A stretch of DNA of 64,000 nucleotides from Glaciozyma antarctica PI12 (Eukaryota; Basidiomycota; Microbotryomycetes; Kriegeriales; Camptobasidiaceae): assembly GCA_002917775.1 (NCBI GenBank), contig KZ627156.1:332909-396908 (forward strand), read 5' to 3'. Below the pieces are notes generated by a model. It did not search any database. It saw nothing but the letters and a program-made list of their open reading frames with translations, and was not told the origin of the DNA. The translations under genes were made by a program, and so were the position numbers. Each line of letters starts with the position of its first letter. Within the stretch, counting starts at the first letter, position 1. Positions 1 to 22,053 of the stretch are shown here, piece after piece.

Positions 1-410
1 ATATGCTCCATCGTGATCACCCGTAGGAATCCGCACGCAGAGACTAAAGTTCGGATTGACGGGGTCGCGAGCTCGAGGGTACCGAGGGAGATCCATCGGT
101 CCCTTCCCCCGGATCCAAGCGGTCTCCTTCAAGCCGGAGGGAACGGACGTATCGACCTAGCCGGGCTGACGAAGGGGGGAGGAGCGGCGAGTGTTCGACC
201 TTGGGCCAACGTCCTGCGGCGTCCCGATGAAGGACGAGGGCGCTATAGACGGCGCCTTGTCCGAGGTCGCGCCAATCCCAACAGACAAGCGCGATATTCC
301 GACCATCTGAGGCGTCGAACTGGTAGGGATGGAGGATGAGGCCGGTGATTTCGCTGGGGATACGGGAGAAGGGCGAGTGGGGAGGGGAGGAGGGGGAGGG
401 TAGGTCGGAC
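1..410 (-). CDS. F-box protein, C-terminal part beyond left edge
   Basis: The minus-strand reading from about 410 down contains an F-box-like segment (RIPSEITGLILHPYQF, then ALVCWDWRDLGQ and RLGRYVRSLRL). The same three blocks, in the same order, occur in the two F-box genes near 54.3 and 61.5 kb, so this is a third member. F-box proteins normally link substrates to SCF ubiquitin ligases; the target here is unknown. The exon probably starts after an acceptor at 411-412 (donor GTGAGT at 472), but the 5' exons are unclear and no in-frame ATG was found. The frame stops at 44; the next frame, entered at the C5 run at 106-110, stays open to base 1, so an indel is likely. The gene continues outside the window. 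Confidence 0.6.
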
Positions 411-619
411 CTGGAGATGTTGCGAGTCAGCACTTTGGTTGAACGAGCTCGAAATTGGTGTACTCTACTCACATTAGGGGGGTTTAGCTGCGTGTAGACG
501 TCAGCGGCAGCAGCGGATGCGGGGGTAGAGGAGTTCGCACCTGAGCAAGACAAGACGAACTCGCAGAAGCCCACGACGCAACGGCCTTCGTAGCCAAGGG
601 AAAGCTGTAGAGCGCACAA

Positions 620-1319
620 TGTTAGCTATTCCCTATCTTGCGCGGCCGCATCTGGTCAGCTCGCTCCTGATTCACCTGATTCAAACACGCGCTTCGTTCG
701 ACCGAAGTAGAGCTTCGAGGCAGTCTCAAGGGCGAGAGAAGAGCAGCACAGCCTGCGTTACGCGTTTAGTCCTCGTTAACACGCCGTGGTGAGGGCTGCA
801 AGCTCACAGGTAGCTGGGAACGCCGTCGACGAGCGCGCGTGGGAGGAGCTGTCGAGGAGGAGGGGGAAGACCTGTCGCCGCAGAACCGCCGTCAGCTGGG
901 ATCGCAGCGTACGCCTGGCTATTTAAGAGCAGCTCACCTTGCGCAGAGCTGGAATCAAGGGAGTGGGAGCTTGCACGCAGTGTCGACGGCGGCTCCACGA
1001 AATGCGTCGTCTGCGTCCTCCTTCGCAATCTCCCCCACTCGACCAGCCACCTCGCTTCAGCTCTCTCGAGGCTCTCTCAAACATCGCCGACGACGAACCA
1101 GATAAGACAGAGTACAAGTACGTGAACGTTGCGCGCACAGGGAGGTAGCTACGGGGCCTGGAAGTGCGGAGGGAGGGGGGATGCGAAGCTAACTACGAAC
1201 GAGGTGATGAAGGAATGAGGAGGGGTGCTAAGCAAGAGAGGGGAAAGGGGTATCGACCAGCGAGTCTACGGAAACCATACGAACAACGTCCTCCATCGTA
1301 CCTCCCGCCAACAACGCGC
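620..1319. other. Spacer between F-box gene and HD2
   Basis: No convincing gene. A minus-strand stretch at about 840-1090 carries an intron-like segment (GTGAGC donor, CTGAC branch, CGACAG acceptor near 863-880) and may be a 5' untranslated or first exon of the left F-box gene, but the flanking reading frames are short and unremarkable. The part from about 1150 to 1319 is the HD2 3' flank. Confidence 0.4.
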
Positions 1320-2809
1320 CTACATCCTCCCCTCGCTCTCCCCCATCTCCGTATCCTCCTCACCCTCCAAATCAACGTGGACAACCCTAACGACCGGCGG
1401 TCCCATCGACCCAGGCATATCCATCTCCAACGCGCCGTTCGAAATCGCATCGTTGCTGTCAAAGACGCCTCGCCAGAACGAGGCATCGTACGCGCCCAAG
1501 TCGAGTTCGATCCCTTGGAAGAAGTTGGTCGGAGGGAAGGGGGACTCGGTGATGGCGTCGGGGGAGATGGGAGGCGACGAGTTGGTTTGGGCGGAGGAGA
1601 GGGCGATCGAGGGGTCGTGGTAGGCGTCGCGGAAGGCGCTCGTCGATCCCGAATACGAGGGGGAGGGTTGCGGGGAGGGAGAGGTGAGGTCGGGCGTCGG
1701 CTGCTGGATGGGAAGAAAGTGCGCGGCGGGGGAGGAGGGGAAGTAGAGGTCGAAGTGGGAGGGAGGGGAGGGACTGCTGCTTCCTCGGTGCGGCATGGGT
1801 TCCTCGTCGCTCGAACTCGAGTGCGGCGACTCGCTCTCGTCCCAGTCCGAGTAGACGACGCGGTGGAGGGGAGGGTAGTGGGGCTGCTCGTTGGCGTAGA
1901 GGGCGTATTGGGGGAAGGTCGAGGGAGGGGAGGGAGCGTCGTCGCGGTCGAACGAGGCGTCGCGATCGTAGGAGGCGTCGCGGTCGCGGTCGTAGGAGGC
2001 GGCGGAGGGTGCGAGCGAGTCGTCGGATTCGGTCGAAGTGTTGCAGAAGTGGGAGAAGGTGCGGAGAGACGATCGACGGGGTGAGAGGGCGACGGCGTTG
2101 GGGCGAGGGGAGGGGTAGGGGAGGGCAGTTGGGCGAGCGTTGCGGGGGTACCTTTCGGAGCGAGCGCGGCGGTTGGAGAACTGCTCGATGCGTTAGTGAA
2201 GGGGCTCGAGCGGGAACAAAGGGAACGACGCACCCAAGTGGCCACCTGCGCTAGGCTCAAGCCCGTCCGCTCCGACAACGCCTGCTTCTCCCTGCGCGAG
2301 ATGTTCGTCTGGCGCTCGTAGACTGCTTGCAGGATCGCCGTCGCGTCGTCCGAGAAGACGCCTCGCTCGTTCGCCGTCGCCGTCGCCATCCTCGTCCGGT
2401 GCGCCTCGACCTCCGTCAAAAGGCTTCCACGAATTCTCCCCATAGTGACGTCGAACTCTCGAACGTAGAGTTCCCGAAGCACCTTCCCGACTCGGCTCAG
2501 GGCCTCAGGCGTTTCTGAAAAGGTCGGAGCGATTCCCTGGACGGTGTCAACGAAAGCCTCTTGGACCCGCTGAGCAACGGCTTCCGCTGCACGATGAAAT
2601 GTGTCCATCAAGATCGCATTCGTCTGCGGAGTGCATCCTGCTGCTTCCAGGTCGGTCCGAACGTTGTCGGAAGAAACGCGGAGGTCAAGAGCAGGCACAC
2701 ACAACGTGCGGTCGGGCTCGAAGCCTTCAAAGAGTTCGGGACAGGCGGCTCGCAGGCGAAGTAAGAGGGCGTTTGTTGTTCTCGCAACCTTGGCCCAGGT
2801 TGAGGTCAT
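1320..2809 (-). CDS. HD2: Homeodomain transcription factor HD2 (mating type)
   Basis: Typical (non-TALE) homeodomain protein of about 478 residues. Exon 1 (2809-2234) encodes helices 1-2 (around residues 145-190, ending LAQVATW). A 53 nt intron (2233-2181, branch CTAAC, acceptor CAG) splits helix 3 between Trp and Phe. Exon 2 resumes FSNRRARSER, restoring the WFxNRRAR recognition helix. The ATG at 2809 is the first in frame; TTG codons lie upstream. The C-terminal two-thirds is Pro/Ser-rich with a YDRD-type repeat and an acidic patch (SDEEP). In basidiomycetes HD2 from one mate dimerises with HD1 from the other to start filamentous and sexual development. It is divergent from HD1, the standard layout. 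HD2 rather than HD1 is inferred from the helix-3 motif and the absence of a TALE loop. Confidence 0.88.
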
Positions 2810-2983
2810 CGGTAGGAGGAGCAAGAGAGGAAGAGGTCTGCCAGCGTCCGCCCTCCTTTGGCAACTTTCCCTTTGTTGTGTCGATCGCTCTCCTCAAGCG
2901 CTCGAGCCTCTCCCCACTTTCTTCCTAACTCTCGAGAACTCCCTTTCTTCTCCTTATCCCTTTATCTTCAAGCCACGTTCCAG
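2810..2983. promoter_or_regulatory. Shared HD1/HD2 intergenic promoter
   Basis: The 174 bp between the two ATGs must hold both promoters and both 5' leaders. The HD1 side is a pyrimidine-rich tract (TCTTCTCCTTATCCC) typical of leaders in this genome. No TATA box or clear regulatory motif was recognised. Confidence 0.6.
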
Positions 2984-4210
2984 ATGCCTCGAGTCCAATC
3001 CAACCCTCGCCTCTCCAACACGACCCCCAACCTCTGGACTCCTCTCCCTTCACCGCATTCGACTCCTTCCCATCGCTCGCGCTTCCCAGGCTTGGACAGG
3101 GCGATTCGCGCCGATATCTCCGCAGCGCAAGACGCCTTCCTTCAAGCGGTCTTGACGGGTGACGCCGGCGGGTTCAGCGCCGATTGGAAAGTCCTGCAAG
3201 CGCGAGTCAACGACGCCGTGGATGCTGGATGGCTCAGCGAGGAGACTATTTCCCGTTGTGCCGCTTTGGCGACGCGGGTTGAAGTCGTCGCGTCTGGTTT
3301 CTGTGAATGGCACCGCACCTTAAGCGAAGGTGTTGACACTGCTCTCGCAAAGACGCAGTCTTACCTGTCTCAAGACAGCTCCACTCCCACCATTCCTCTC
3401 TCCCTCTCCCACTCCCACTCCCCCTCGACCGACACCACCACCCGCACGCCCAAACCCTCCCTCCAATCGCGCTCGACCCCCTCCTCCTCCCCCTCAGGCG
3501 ACAACCTCTTCCTCCCCTACCGCACCTACTTCCTCACCCACCTCTCTCACCCCTACCCCCGCTCCTCCTACCGCCCTCACCTCCTCTCCCTCGTCCCACA
3601 CCACAACTCCACCCAACTCGCCGCCTGGTTCGTCAACGCCCGTCGTCGCTCCGGGTGGGCTGATCTCAAGCGCTTGCATGGTGGAGGGTCGACGAAAGGG
3701 TTGGAGGAGCTGTTGGAGAAGATTGGGAGTGCGAGCAGGGGGTGGGAAGTGAGCGAGGAGGCGAGGGAGGCGGTCGAGAGGGTCAAGACGTGGTTCGTCG
3801 AGGGGGGGAGGGATAAGTTGGGAGACGACGTGAGGGAGATTGTAGAGGGAAGGACGCCGAGCGCGAGTACGCCGAGGGACGTGAGCGATTCGAGCTTTGT
3901 GAGCAGCGGGGGGACGTCGGTCATTTCGTACGCGAGCGGGGAGGCGCCGGAGGAGGACGACTACGACGCAACCCCTTTTCGACAGCCTTACACCTACTCT
4001 CCTTACGTTGCCCTCCCTCTCTCCTTTCCTACGACGTACGGCTCTCCCGTCCCCATCCCTCAGCGGCAGCAGCAGCCAAACCAGTACTTTGCGACGATGG
4101 CGGATCACCCTCTCGTTGGATCGGGATCGAGCGGCGGGATGGGAGGAGCAGGAGCGGGAGCTGGGTTTGGTGGGAGGGGAGGAGCGGTCGGAGGGTCGAG
4201 GAGGTCGTAG
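2984..4210 (+). CDS. HD1: TALE homeodomain transcription factor HD1 (mating type)
   Basis: A 408-residue protein in one apparent exon. Residues about 174-228 form a TALE-class homeodomain: a first helix (LFLPYRTYFLTHL), the three-residue loop with the PYP signature (SHPYPRS), and recognition helix AAWFVNARRRSGW, which matches the WFxNARRR of TALE proteins such as bE. The N-terminal 100 residues, usually variable and used for self/non-self recognition, follow the ATG at 2984; the frame is open upstream but only from a TTG. The tail is Gly-rich (GSGSSGGMGGAGAGAGFGG). The partner is HD2 next door. The heterodimer forms only between alleles of different mates, so this pair marks one HD mating specificity. 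Confidence 0.9.
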   Translation: MPRVQSNPRLSNTTPNLWTPLPSPHSTPSHRSRFPGLDRAIRADISAAQDAFLQAVLTGDAGGFSADWKVLQARVNDAVDAGWLSEETISRCAALATRVEVVASGFCEWHRTLSEGVDTALAKTQSYLSQDSSTPTIPLSLSHSHSPSTDTTTRTPKPSLQSRSTPSSSPSGDNLFLPYRTYFLTHLSHPYPRSSYRPHLLSLVPHHNSTQLAAWFVNARRRSGWADLKRLHGGGSTKGLEELLEKIGSASRGWEVSEEAREAVERVKTWFVEGGRDKLGDDVREIVEGRTPSASTPRDVSDSSFVSSGGTSVISYASGEAPEEDDYDATPFRQPYTYSPYVALPLSFPTTYGSPVPIPQRQQQPNQYFATMADHPLVGSGSSGGMGGAGAGAGFGGRGGAVGGSRRS

Positions 4211-4619: not shown

Positions 4620-5840
4620 ATGGAAGCCGAAGCGATCCCACCACAAATCTACGTCGACCCCTTCGTCCTCGTCGCCTCCTCCGCCTCAGCCGTCTCAGCC
4701 CGTCTCTTTACCCACCCTCGTCCGTCCTCCCCTCCCCTCCCCACGCCTAACTAAGGCCTCGCCCACAGTGGACACTCTCCGAATCCGCGTCCAGACTTGG
4801 CCAGGGGCGATCGTGCCACCGCTGAAGGAGCTCATCCCACAACCGAGGATGAGAACGCTCTATGCTGGTGAGCTACTTGCGATCGAGCGGAGGAGGGGAG
4901 CTGATGAGGAGTGCAGGACTGCCGGTGGCGATTGCGTTTAGCGTACCGGCGTTGTCAATCTATTTATCGACGTACGAGATCTCGAAGAGGTACCTTGGAG
5001 CGAGGTGGTTGCAGGGGGATCGGAAAGCGACGTTGTTGGAGCAGTTGCCGGTGTTTATGCTGTCGGGCGTAGCGGCTGAGGGTGCGTTCGTTTGTTTTGG
5101 GGGTAGGGGAGGGAGCTGATGATTGTGCAGTGGCGTCTGGAGCGGTGTGGACTCCCCTCGACGTGCTCAAAAGCCGACTGGTGCGTTCTTCCTTGCGTCC
5201 CTACCTCTCGCAGCTGAACTCCCGCACAGCAAAAAGGGAACGAAGGAACGACCTCCGCCACGACTCTCCTCCAAAAAATCTGGCGTGAGGAGGGTCACCG
5301 GGGCGTCTGGCGAGGTTACTGGGTCTCCATGCTCGTCTTCGTGTACCGTTCCCCCCCCCCCCCCTCTCCCCTCTCCTGGCTAACCCCCTCAAAACAGACC
5401 CTATATCTCCCTCTACTGGACCCTCTACGAATCCTTCAAAACCTCCTTCATCCCCAACTACGACGCCTACCGACCCTCTCCCCCCTCCTCCCTCCCTTCA
5501 AAACCTTACGAGCTCCCCCTAACGCTCAAATACACCCTCTGCTCCGTAACCGCCTGCTCTCTAGCAGCGAGCGTGACGAATCCTATCGAGTTGGTGCAGA
5601 GTCGGTGGCAGACGAGTGCGGGGAAGGGACTGGGGGAGAAGGGGGTCAAGGGGATTGTGAGGGAGTTGTGGAAACAGGGTGGGGTCAAGGCGTTTGGGAG
5701 GGGATTGGGGATTCGTGTCGCTTATGCGGTGAGTGCGGTTTCTGAGAGGGTGGGGAGGAGGCTGATGAGAGGTGCAGATTCCGGCGAATGGGATCAGTAT
5801 GACGGTGTACGAATCGCTCAAGCGTTGGAAGGGGATTTAG
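4620..5840 (+). CDS. Mitochondrial carrier family (SLC25) protein
   Basis: A six-helix solute carrier of the mitochondrial inner membrane; the substrate cannot be told from sequence. After splicing, all three signature repeats are visible: PLDTLRIRVQ (intron 4720-4768 falls inside the Leu codon), PLDVLKSR, and PIELVQSR, each with the Px(D/E)xx(K/R) core. The aromatic segment PYISLYWTLYESF lies before repeat 3. About six introns of 40-90 nt with GTGAGC/GTGCGT donors interrupt it. The intron beginning near 5342 contains a run of 14 C (5351-5364). The ATG at 4620 starts shortly before helix 1, as usual for the family. It converges with the beta-helix gene, with stops about 110 bp apart. Confidence 0.85.
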
Positions 5841-5948
5841 AGCTCAGAGGGATAGACGCAGGGAACCGAATAGAGCAGCGATTGTTGTAGACGCATTAAC
5901 AAGGACAATACAACACTATAAAGCTACAAGACCAGCGACCCGCGCTGT

Positions 5949-7701
5949 CTACGACCTCCTCCTTACATGCGCCGGCGCCCTAGGCACACTCAATTTCCTC
6001 CTCTTCATCCCCTTCTCCCCCCTCACAACGTCACTCTCCTTCGGCTGCATCCTCTCCTTCTTCTGTGCCCCTCTCCCAGGATGTACCTCCTCCCTCCCCA
6101 CTCCCCCTCCTACCGGTCTCCCATTCCCATTCCTCCCCTTCCTAGCCGCCTGAGCCGCATACACCTCATTTATGGTGTGTCGGGAGAGAGGGGCTGAGGA
6201 AGGAGCGCCTGGTCCGACGCAGAGGAGGAAAGCGAAGTGCTCGTCTGTGAATTCGGGTTGGAGGTGACCGATGACGGAACGGGGGTCGCGGAGGAGAGGG
6301 GTGGGAGTTGTGAAAGAGGGAGAGTTGTAGCAGGCGGAGGTTTCGAGGCCCCAGATTGCGGCTCTGTTGAATCGGAAAGTTAGGAGGAGCTCGTTCACCG
6401 AGGGAGGAGGGACGGACGAGATGGAGTTCTCGGTGACGAGGATGGCGCGAGCGTCGGAGATGGCGATGGCGTAGCCGTAGTAGCCTGTGTAAGAGGAGAG
6501 GCGGTTCCGAACGATTTCGGAGCCGTAGGCGATCTCGTGCTCGCCGGGTTGCTCGTCCGTTGACCAGGCGCCTGCGCCTGTGGAGATGCCGACGCGGATC
6601 ATCGCTGAGGCGGCGTGGATTCCGTTGTCGCTGGGAAAGAGATTGTTAGCGACGGAGAGAAGCAGGAAAGGGAGAAGGACGAACCGAACGATCACTCCGC
6701 CGTCGTGAGCTGGGCGAGTGGTGAAGATGGGGTTGGCGACGATGGCGATGCCGACGAGCATGTCCCTATCGCGCGCGATGACACTGTTCGTCGTGACTTG
6801 TGTCCCAGGCGCTCCTCGCAGCGCGATTCCAACGCCAGAGACATCGCGAACGACGTTGCCCGAGATGGTCCTGCGCAAAAATCAGTTCCTGCTCCAGAAT
6901 GCGAGAGAAAAGACGCACGATTGTTGACAAGCGACAGAGATACCGTCAGTCCATTTTCCTGGGCGGTCGATCCCCCGGAATGGTGGGACGCCGCGACGGA
7001 GACGAGCGAGTTCCGAGGTGAGCATGAGGTCGAGAGGAGCGTCGCCGGAGGAGTGGAAGACGGAATCGGCGATGGTGACGGAGTTACATGTGCCTTTGAT
7101 TCCAGCTGCGAAGTGAGGGAAGAGTTAGCTACTGTGAGAAGGAAGCGAGGAGAACGGACGTACCTCCAGCATGAACGATGGCGTATCCTCGAGCCGCCGA
7201 CGCCTCAACATGCCGCACCTCCTGCTCTCCCACCAATCCACCGACAAGAATCAAAGCATCTCCTCCCTCCAATCCTCCCATCTCTCCCCTCCCTCCATCG
7301 ACGTAGACGTTCTTGATGATGACCCCGCTGCACGCGTCGCAATCCGCCTTGATAGCCGTCGTGAGATCCCCGCTGTAGTGTCCTTTCGGATGCACAATCT
7401 GGATCGTCGCACGCGAGTGATCCTCCGGTAGTCCAAGCGTGTAGATGCTCTGCTTCGCCGCCGTGAACGTGACGGGAACGCCGTGAGGGTCGATGGCAAT
7501 TTGAGCGTCGGGGCAGAGGACGATCTCGGTGCCTGCTCCGCCGGTGAGGAGGAGGTGGTTGAGTTGAACTGCTGAGGCGCTGTGGAGGCAGTCGGAGTTT
7601 TTGGGGAGGAGGGGAGTTTGGGAGGCCGAGGAGGGGGAGAGGAGAGAGAGGAGGAGGAGAGTCGAAAGGGGGAGAGAGCGGGCGCACCAGTCGCTAAGCA
7701 T
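5949..7701 (-). CDS. Secreted parallel beta-helix protein A
   Basis: The ATG at 7701 opens a signal peptide (LPLSTLLLLSLLSPSSAS). Downstream exons encode short repeated strands with N and V/I ladders (GVIIKNVYVDG, VTIADSVFHSSG, TISGNVVRDVSGVG, GGVIVRDNGIHAAS, YGYAIAISDARAILVTENS), the pattern of right-handed beta-helix proteins in the pectate lyase/NosD superfamily. Extracellular polysaccharide binding or cleavage is likely but not shown. The C-terminal block LQPEFTDEHFAFLLC is shared with beta-helix protein B near 38-40 kb, so the two are paralogs. The tail after it is basic and low-complexity. At least four introns are visible. Specific substrate and enzymatic activity are unknown. Confidence 0.75.
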
Positions 7702-19948: not shown

Positions 19949-22053
19949 ATGAGCAGGAACCCTGTTGCTTCCATTTCAGGAACGCCCTACGACTCCCCCC
20001 ACGGCTCAGACTGGTCTACCGCCTCCAATGCCATCGCCGTCCCGCGCTCGACCTCCTCCCAGCTCACTCGAACAGTGATCACCAAGCCGTCCCTCTCCCT
20101 TCTCAAGCAGGAGATCCTCTCTGTGCGCTATTCCCCTCTCTGCGATTGGGCTCAGCTGACGTGCAGTGGGTTACAGGATGAGCCGAATACACCGATGCGC
20201 TCTCCGACATCATCAAGCGTGACTTCTTCCCCCAGCTCCGGGAGCTGGACGCCCACAACGAGCTCGTACGGGCGTACCGCTCCGAGAACCCTTCCCAGAT
20301 CGAGGAAAGCGTCCGCCGGATGCGCGAAGTCGTCACCCCCACCCCTCGTCGACGGAATCGAGGTGCGCTCTCTCCTCCCCCCTGCCCCTACTCAGCTGAC
20401 GAGAGGACGACAGGAGCTACCCCCGGCCGCACACCCTTCGGTACAGAACCCTCCGACACCCCGACCTACTTCTCCGAAACCCCCTCCCGCGCCACACCCC
20501 GCACGAAGGCCGCTCGAGCTCTGCCGGACACGCGGTACGACGACACCCTCTCCCTCGACGCCTTTCAGGCCAAGTACACCTCGGAGGATAACTCGTCGTT
20601 TGCGGGACTGTTGAACTCGGACAACAAGGTTCGGAGGGAGAAGTACAATTGGGCTTGGGACGCGGAGCGCAAGGCGAATGTCAAGGCTATTCGAGGGAGG
20701 GAGGCGAGGGAAAGACTGGTGGATATGACGAGGAAGATGGTGGAGAGCGATAAAGATGGGGTGGTGAGGATGGTGGAGGGAGCGCCGGGGAGGCCGGGGG
20801 AGCGAAGGTTGGTGGTGGAGGGTGGGATGGAGGCGCCGTCGAGGTTGATGGTGGAAGGAAAGACGTGGGGGGTTGGTGGTTTCGTGGTTACGGGGGGAGG
20901 GGAGGCGTCTGCGAAGGGGAAGGGGAAGGGGAANNNNNNNNNNNNNNNNNNNNNNNNNNNNNNNNNNNNNNNNNNNNNNNNNNNNNNNNNNNNNNNNNNN
21001 NNNNNNNNNNNNGGGAGGGAGGGAGGGACGGAGGAGGAGGAGGAGGAGGAGAGGGGGAAGGGGAAGGAGGTGGTGGAGGGGAGTGGGTTTGTCGATTGGG
21101 ACAAGCCGACGGTCGAGGAGGAGGAGGATGCGAAGGCGGTCAAGGATATCGACTGCCAGGTCCCAATGGACGGCTGGAAGTTTACCGTATGTCCGCCTCT
21201 CTTCGCTGCCCTCGCAGAAACTGACCTCGCCTGCAGAACCGCAACTCGTTCATGTTCCCTCCCGACGCCGACGTCCCCTTTGATCGCGATCCTATCCTCC
21301 CCGACGCGAATCCCGACGCGCTACTTCTCGGCGACCCCAAGGCGATTCGGCACCATGCGACGAGGCTGGAGGAGGTCGAGAAGGGAGATCCAGGAGCGCC
21401 GAGTCCCAGTCGAAGTCGGATCAACGCTGCGATCACTGGAACGCCTTGTACGTCCGCTTTCTACTCGAACCACCACTCCTTCTTCGTCTCCTCCGTATCC
21501 CCTCGCAACGCTGAGCTAACAAACCCTCGCAGATCCCAACCCCACCTCCGGCACTCCCAAAGTACGGGGCTTCTCCTTCGTCTCCGCCCTCCCCACTCCT
21601 CGTGCTTCGACTATCGACCCCCAATCTCTGCAAGACCTCATGACCTGGGGCACCATCGATTCTACCCCTGTCGCCCTCTATCGCTCCTCGCTCTCCTCCG
21701 GCGGCGGTCCCTTCCACATCACCGACACCTCCCGCCGCGAAGTCCTCGCGCACCGCATGGCGAACAAAGCCAAGCGCTCCCTCTCTGCGCGCGACGGCGA
21801 GGAGAAGAAGAGCCGCGCGAGCTCGCTGAGGACGGGGACGCCAAGAGCGGCGGAATTGAGTCCTGCGGCGAGGATGCTGCTGGGGAGGACGGGGCCGGGG
21901 AAGGCGTTGGAAGGTGGGATGGGAGGAAGGGAGAGGGCGATGAAGAGGGCTAGGGAGGTGGAGAGTAGGGAGAGGTTGAGGAGGGAGAGGTGGACGCCTA
22001 GTCCGAGTGTGGATTTGGGCTTTGATCCGGATTTGCCGGATGAACCGATGTAG
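19949..22053 (+). CDS. ESS2: ESS2/DGCR14 splicing factor
   Basis: Nuclear protein of the late spliceosome (C complex), homologous to DGCR14/ESS2 and fission yeast Bis1. Diagnostic segments: EYTDALSDIIKRDFFPQL near the N-terminus, TPRRRNRG, YTSEDNSSFAGLLNSDN with REKYNWAWDAE, NRNSFMFPPDA, and SPAARMLLGR with a basic charged tail ending DLPDEPM. Introns of about 45-60 nt follow ILS, the Arg-rich segment, DGWKFT and GTPY. A run of 79 N (20934-21012) falls in a low-complexity Glu/Gly linker. One base appears missing at 20178-20184 (GATGAGCCGAA where GATGAGGCCGAA would keep the conserved DEAEYTD in frame). The ATG at 19949 (MSRNPVAS) is the first in the exon. Confidence 0.88.
20934..21012. other. 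Assembly gap (79 N)
   Basis: A run of 79 unknown bases flanked on the left by repeated GGGGAA units and on the right by GGGAGGGAGGGA and GGAGGAGGA. It most likely covers a purine-rich tandem repeat inside the ESS2 linker; its true length is not known. Confidence 0.95.

Follow-up and report, generated by a model that had tools for sequence, protein, structure and literature searches.

A divergent homeodomain gene pair and a STE3 receptor gene on separate contigs of a Microbotryomycetes genome

Whether the ancestral mating-type (MAT) system of basidiomycetes was unlinked (tetrapolar) or loosely linked, as in the pseudo-bipolar model (PMC2916851; this and all other papers are cited here from excerpts), turns partly on where red yeasts carry their homeodomain (HD) genes relative to their pheromone/receptor (P/R) genes. 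This is the question raised by HD1 and HD2, two divergently oriented homeodomain genes near the beginning of a 64,000-nucleotide stretch of a Microbotryomycetes genome (G000 C11:332909-396908; hereafter, the window). The gene pair itself is ordinary and of a well-known kind, by which a basidiomycete distinguishes its own nucleus from that of a mate; its linkage to the P/R locus is the more informative feature. Because both homeodomain classes, the divergent arrangement, the one copy found, the predicted helical N-termini and an intact STE3 receptor gene elsewhere all fit, we consider it very probable that the pair is the HD MAT locus of this basidiomycete, with N-terminal allele-specific pairing as in studied relatives. 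Telomere repeats cap both ends of the HD contig, and STE3 is found on another contig, an arrangement that bears directly on the question of ancestral linkage. Moreover, HD2 is intact here, whereas only a remnant has been reported in a Rhodotorula genome.

The homeodomain gene pair

The two gene models and their parts are located as follows, in window coordinates:

2809..1320, minus strand: HD2 gene, 478 amino acids (aa) once a 53-bp intron is removed
2234..2809, minus strand: HD2 exon 1, 192 aa, comprising the N-terminal region and most of the homeodomain
2414..2809, minus strand: HD2 residues 1-132, a variable N-terminal region delimited by a conservation change point and predicted to be mostly helical
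2234..2377, minus strand: exon-1 part of the HD2 homeodomain, residues 145-192 (PF00046), the rest being in 2180..2145
2181..2233, minus strand: HD2 intron, 53 bp, GT..CTAAC..CAG, interrupting the homeodomain codons after ..VATW and before FSNRRAR..
1320..2180, minus strand: HD2 exon 2, with the homeodomain end, a long Ser/Pro/Asp-rich C-terminus and the stop
2810..2983, no strand: shared intergenic region, 174 bp between the HD1 and HD2 start codons
2984..4210, plus strand: HD1 gene, a single open frame with no intron needed, 408 aa
2984..3373, plus strand: HD1 residues 1-130, an N-terminal region less conserved by identity to the database relative P0003, with helices predicted at 35-130
3476..3664, plus strand: HD1 TALE/KN homeodomain, residues 165-227 (PF05920), with HPYP loop and WFVNARRR

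An earlier note on this DNA had described two divergent genes with different homeodomain types and a 174-bp shared intergenic region, and had interpreted them as an HD MAT locus. The gene models bear out this description, placing the genes divergently with their start codons exactly 174 bp apart. Pfam searches assigned a typical homeodomain to HD2 (PF00046, 46.9 bits with a cut-off of 22.9) and a TALE/KN homeodomain to HD1 (Homeobox_KN, PF05920, 29.3 bits with a cut-off of 24), while no PF00046 match to HD1 was among the Pfam matches listed. Both homeodomains were hence recovered by profile search, and the absence of either was an outcome that the note had named as speaking against its interpretation. 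The sequence motifs that it had reported are likewise present: WFSNRRAR appears in HD2 only after splicing of the 53-bp intron, and the HPYP loop and WFVNARRRSGW both occur in HD1.

The stop-to-stop frame of HD1 comprises 464 codons and the raw frame of HD2, which passes through the intron out of frame, comprises 566. For comparison, 20 sequences of 64 kb were simulated with a first-order Markov model of the window; the longest stop-to-stop frame in each measured 256-380 codons. In a six-frame search of the genome (19.98 Mb, 18 contigs), 4 candidates were scored for PF05920, and HD1 gave the sole match at E <= 0.001. For PF00046, 8 candidates were scored and five matches obtained, HD2 and four others located on C7, C13, C3 and C16.

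Comparison with solved structures matched HD2 to engrailed, NANOG and yeast MATa1 (E 4e-5 for MATa1), and gave weak matches of HD1 to Meis, PKNOX and TGIF (E about 0.01 to 0.06), the best being the TALE proteins Meis and PKNOX. Structure models were built from thin alignments of five sequences for HD1 and three for HD2 exon 1. The HD2 exon 1 model predicts a mostly helical N-terminal region (mean predicted local distance difference test score, pLDDT, 73.1); the HD1 model predicts helices at residues 35-130 and, past about residue 287, no regular structure, at low confidence. A Foldseek search with the HD1 model ranked PKNOX1 first (E 0.32) and MEIS1 second (E 0.96), with 0 of the 81 matches at E <= 10 reaching E <= 0.001. 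We take this fold search to be consistent with a homeodomain and give it no further weight.

N-terminal divergence and conserved homeodomains

Relatives of both proteins were sought in a protein collection, which yielded P0001 and P0002 for HD2 and P0003-P0006 for HD1. Among the named relatives of HD1, the nearest is a Leucosporidium scottii protein with a KN homeodomain. Extending the HD2 search to residues 1-202 (3044 candidates scored) returned the same two relatives and no named red-yeast HD2.

Across exon 1 of the three HD2 sequences, 27 of 132 columns are identical up to residue 132 and 53 of 60 beyond it, and a split as strong was obtained in 0 of 2000 column shuffles. Among these database relatives, the N-terminus of HD2 is the variable part, as the earlier note had expected between strains, but it measures about 132 residues rather than the ~100 that the note had proposed. 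Pairwise counts, which set aside 5 gap columns (in the P0001 comparisons) and the extra N-terminal residues of the relatives, follow the same division. HD2 of the window is identical to P0001 at 53/132 positions before the change point and 54/60 after it, and to P0002 at 42/132 and 53/60, respectively; P0001 and P0002 agree with each other at 49/132 and 58/60.

Both relatives appear to read through an intron at the same site as that of HD2. In the read-through stretch following VATW (putative intron plus out-of-frame exon 2), identity amounts to 58/66 between P0001 and P0002, 56/73 between the window and P0001, and 38/56 between the window and P0002. Judging from this stretch, HD2, P0001 and P0002 appear to be closely related in their DNA, with the N-termini being the most diverged part.

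For HD1, identity to P0003 is 34/84 over residues 46-130 and 49/60 over residues 173-232. Against P0004, P0005 and P0006, the N-terminal region is identical at 22/85, 26/85 and 26/85 positions and the homeodomain at 27/60, 26/60 and 29/56, respectively. By way of these database relatives, the comparisons lend indirect support to N-terminal hypervariability in the pair.

The third-position GC content of the variable blocks is 0.60 and 0.63, versus 0.92 and 0.85 in the homeodomain stretches. We rejected this as a compositional mark of the variable block: 672 of 3100 segments of the window had a GC content as low as that of the block or lower, and third-position GC of the first 132 codons spans 0.60-0.88 across nine long frames, a set that includes the two HD frames.

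From studied relatives we infer how the pair would work, that is, allele-specific pairing, DNA binding by a heterodimer and control of sex. HD1 and HD2 would be expressed from their common 174-bp promoter, and their N-terminal helical regions would determine whether a given HD1 and a given HD2 pair. Products of the same allele would not do so; after cell fusion, the HD1 of one mate would pair with the HD2 of the other. The resulting heterodimer would bind DNA through both of its homeodomains and turn on the dikaryotic or filamentous programme.

Placement of the HD and STE3 loci and rival explanations

STE3 matches were found at one place in the genome, on C15, where the spliced product of 381 aa (PF02076, 318.6 bits) has an intact frame. 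The genes in this region are:

C15:311337-311462: RibL18ae
C15:313159-314465: STE3, PF02076 318.6 bits
C15:314682-315467: RibL6 frame
C15:315546-316085: RNAPOL frame

This order, RibL18ae-STE3-RibL6-RNAPOL, is that of MAT A1 across most Sporidiobolales (PMC3236058). The likeness to A1 is one of gene order; on the A2 side, the neighbour is LSm7. From this order and from the nearest named relative of HD1, we place the genome in the Microbotryomycetes, most likely in the Sporidiobolales. To stay in frame, the STE3 model requires a GC-AG intron (GCGAGT donor) at C15:313734-313793. No tandem-repeat pheromone precursor was found in the 40 kb round STE3 (C15:293001-333000) or in the window. A scan of the same 40 kb for CAAX ends gave two short frames; both are without repeats and neither is convincing. 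A DNA pattern for the rhodotorucine-A-like peptide WTRNGC had 0 matches genome-wide.

The HD locus is located at about 334-337 kb of C11 (1,332,751 bp), a contig that starts with CCCTAA arrays and ends with TTAGGG arrays. STE3 lies at 313-314 kb of C15 (965,466 bp), which ends with TTAGGG and of which the first 2 kb are N. Telomere-type CCCTAA arrays (plus strand) also occur away from base 1 on C1, at C1:77112-77231 and C1:777671-777778, representing a possible misjoin or internal telomeric repeats.

Partner genes of the two loci have been described: in S. roseus, the scaffold with HD also carries isocitrate lyase (IsocL), while PAN6 accompanies STE3, and MIP serves as a further marker, taken from the passage as STE3-side (PMC2916851). 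Assigning such genes by Pfam family, not by tree, we found all isocitrate-lyase-family matches on C11 (924-967 kb), about 590 kb from HD, and the pantoate-ligase (PAN6-like) matches on C15, at 141-143 kb. M3-peptidase (MIP-like) matches fell at two loci, the stronger on C15 (857-859 kb) and the other on C5. The isocitrate-lyase family is represented on C11 by two genes about 40 kb apart (C11:924430-926632 and C11:965046-966842). The HD and STE3 halves each appear to have kept their partner genes, on separate contigs.

In a pseudo-bipolar system, HD and P/R would be loosely linked on the same chromosome; here HD is on C11 and STE3 on C15. Physical separation of HD and P/R, one mark of a tetrapolar system, is what we find at the level of the assembly. 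With HD on a telomere-capped contig apart from STE3, the organism therefore looks physically tetrapolar, provided that the assembly is correct. On the same proviso, HD and P/R are on different chromosomes and would be expected to segregate independently if the species is sexual. We are probably dealing with a physically tetrapolar red yeast in an order described as pseudo-bipolar, in which the MAT linkage group of the S. salmonicolor type corresponds to two chromosomes (HD with isocitrate lyase; STE3 with PAN6 and MIP). On this reading, linkage would either have been lost here or have arisen in the salmonicolor lineage, the latter with unlinked loci as the ancestral state of the Sporidiobolales. 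The segregation evidence in S. salmonicolor comes from eight teliospores (PMC2916851), and either state may be ancestral.

Several points weigh against the pair being the HD MAT locus with allele-specific N-termini. The relatives are few, two for HD2 and four for HD1, from searches that scored only the 8,000 or so candidates with the most words in common; P0001 and P0002 come from environmental or unnamed database records rather than from identified alleles of one species; and the variable block does not stand out in base composition. HD2 has a weaker, overlapping Homeobox_KN match (26.9 bits, cut-off 24) and so exceeds the KN cut-off too, meaning that the PF00046 and KN models separate the classes imperfectly. 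On HD1, the Pfam family Mating_N reaches 19.9, under its cut-off of 21.4, and the confidence of the HD1 structure model is low (mean pLDDT 56.5). Finally, no convincing pheromone gene was recognised in the searches described above, and 4,197 of the 40,000 bases round STE3 are N and may hide one.

Three other explanations have to be weighed with these points in mind. That HD1 and HD2 are ordinary non-mating homeodomain genes, divergent by chance, is barely credible: with four further PF00046 matches in the genome, homeodomain genes are not rare, but the TALE gene, the one PF05920 match found genome-wide, adjoins a typical homeodomain gene, its nearest named relative is the L. scottii KN homeodomain protein, and the pattern of N-terminal divergence is that of mating genes. 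Possible, though on the whole unlikely, is a relic pair in an effectively asexual lineage, with frames still open but mating no longer decided by them, and N-terminal divergence reflecting relaxed rather than diversifying selection. Such a state is in line with a study that infers relaxed selection on HD1 for one clade and finds HD2 cut short by stop codons in certain asexual red yeasts (PMC3236058), with Rhodotorula mucilaginosa JGTA-S1, which is reported to have HD1 but only an HD2 remnant (PMC6476726), and with the lack of a convincing pheromone gene in the searches made here. Both HD genes and STE3 are, however, open here, and whole-gene relaxed selection does not predict a pattern as focused as that between P0001 and P0002 (58/60 in the homeodomain versus 49/132 in the N-terminus).

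A different objection concerns placement: HD and STE3 might truly share one chromosome, as in the pseudo-bipolar S. salmonicolor, for which a cross and associations between alleles point to linkage, with their separation here being an assembly artefact. Assembly errors are possible, since the telomere-type arrays noted on C1 do not begin at its first base, and the left end of C15 is masked, its first 2 kb being N. The telomere arrays at both ends of C11 nevertheless argue against a shared chromosome, as does the distribution of markers, HD with isocitrate lyase on C11 and STE3 with the PAN6-like and MIP-like genes on C15, which matches the scaffold partners given in the excerpts of PMC2916851. 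We regard this alternative as improbable and retain the reading of a tetrapolar arrangement with the HD MAT locus on C11.

The surroundings of the HD locus provide context only:

5384..5890, plus strand: 3' frame of a flanking mitochondrial-carrier gene (PF00153 Mito_carr, 43.5 bits), outside the locus
47..625, minus strand: flanking open frame, F-box-like (weak PF12937 match, 17.7 bits, under the cut-off of 24.3)

Of the flanking carrier and F-box genes named in the earlier note, the carrier is therefore recognisable in its 3' frame, with no match in the other frame tried (4853-5116), whereas the F-box assignment stays below threshold. Beside the carrier, a frame at 5952-6881 on the minus strand, perhaps extending to 7743, has a weak right-handed beta-helix match (14.6 bits, cut-off 25.9). 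The window also contains 79 N bases at 20934-21012.

Comparison with known systems

Yeast MATa1 and MATalpha2 comprise one typical and one TALE-like homeodomain and act as a heterodimer. The pair described here resembles them in combining a typical with a TALE-like homeodomain, HD2 matching MATa1 itself (E 4e-5), and differs from them in that the yeast genes are not known as a divergent, multi-allelic pair. In the b locus of Ustilago maydis (bE/bW), a divergent homeodomain pair decides self/non-self in its N-termini. The likeness to our locus extends to both the divergent pair and the location of HD and P/R on different chromosomes; U. maydis has 33 b alleles and carries HD and P/R on separate chromosomes (PMC2916851). 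It belongs, however, to another subphylum, and the likeness is one of description.

Microbotryum belongs to the Microbotryomycetes. Unlinked HD and P/R loci are treated as known in Microbotryum and other basidiomycetes in the excerpts of PMC5962589, PMC7898863, PMC6730849 and PMC10977897, and the unlinked state is therefore not new to the class. Rhodotorula babjevae is used as an outgroup in one of these studies (PMC5962589). Among the matches listed from the open-access literature, mostly titles and abstracts, there was none reporting a red yeast with HD and P/R on different complete chromosomes.

Within the red yeasts, HD1/HD2 alleles have been described in six species, and the same paper reports no receptor alleles for Rh. 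mucilaginosa or for four further asexual species (PMC3236058). The genome of R. mucilaginosa JGTA-S1 has HD1, an HD2 remnant and STE3 on two scaffolds, with linkage left undecided (PMC6476726). Our genome is similar in having the HD genes and STE3 on separate scaffolds, and differs in encoding a full HD2 of 478 aa, in contrast to the remnant, and in having an HD contig capped at both ends.

S. salmonicolor is reported to have HD pairs with variable 5' ends and to require heterozygosity at both loci, and its HD and STE3 regions are inferred to be linked, that is, pseudo-bipolar (PMC2916851). With Sporidiobolus salmonicolor and other Sporidiobolales, as described in the excerpts available (PMC2916851, PMC3236058), the present genome shares divergent HD1 and HD2 genes, conserved homeodomains, putatively variable 5' ends and a conserved P/R gene order. 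Whereas partial linkage of HD and P/R is inferred in S. salmonicolor, the two loci are found here on different contigs, the one carrying HD ending in telomeric repeats on both sides.

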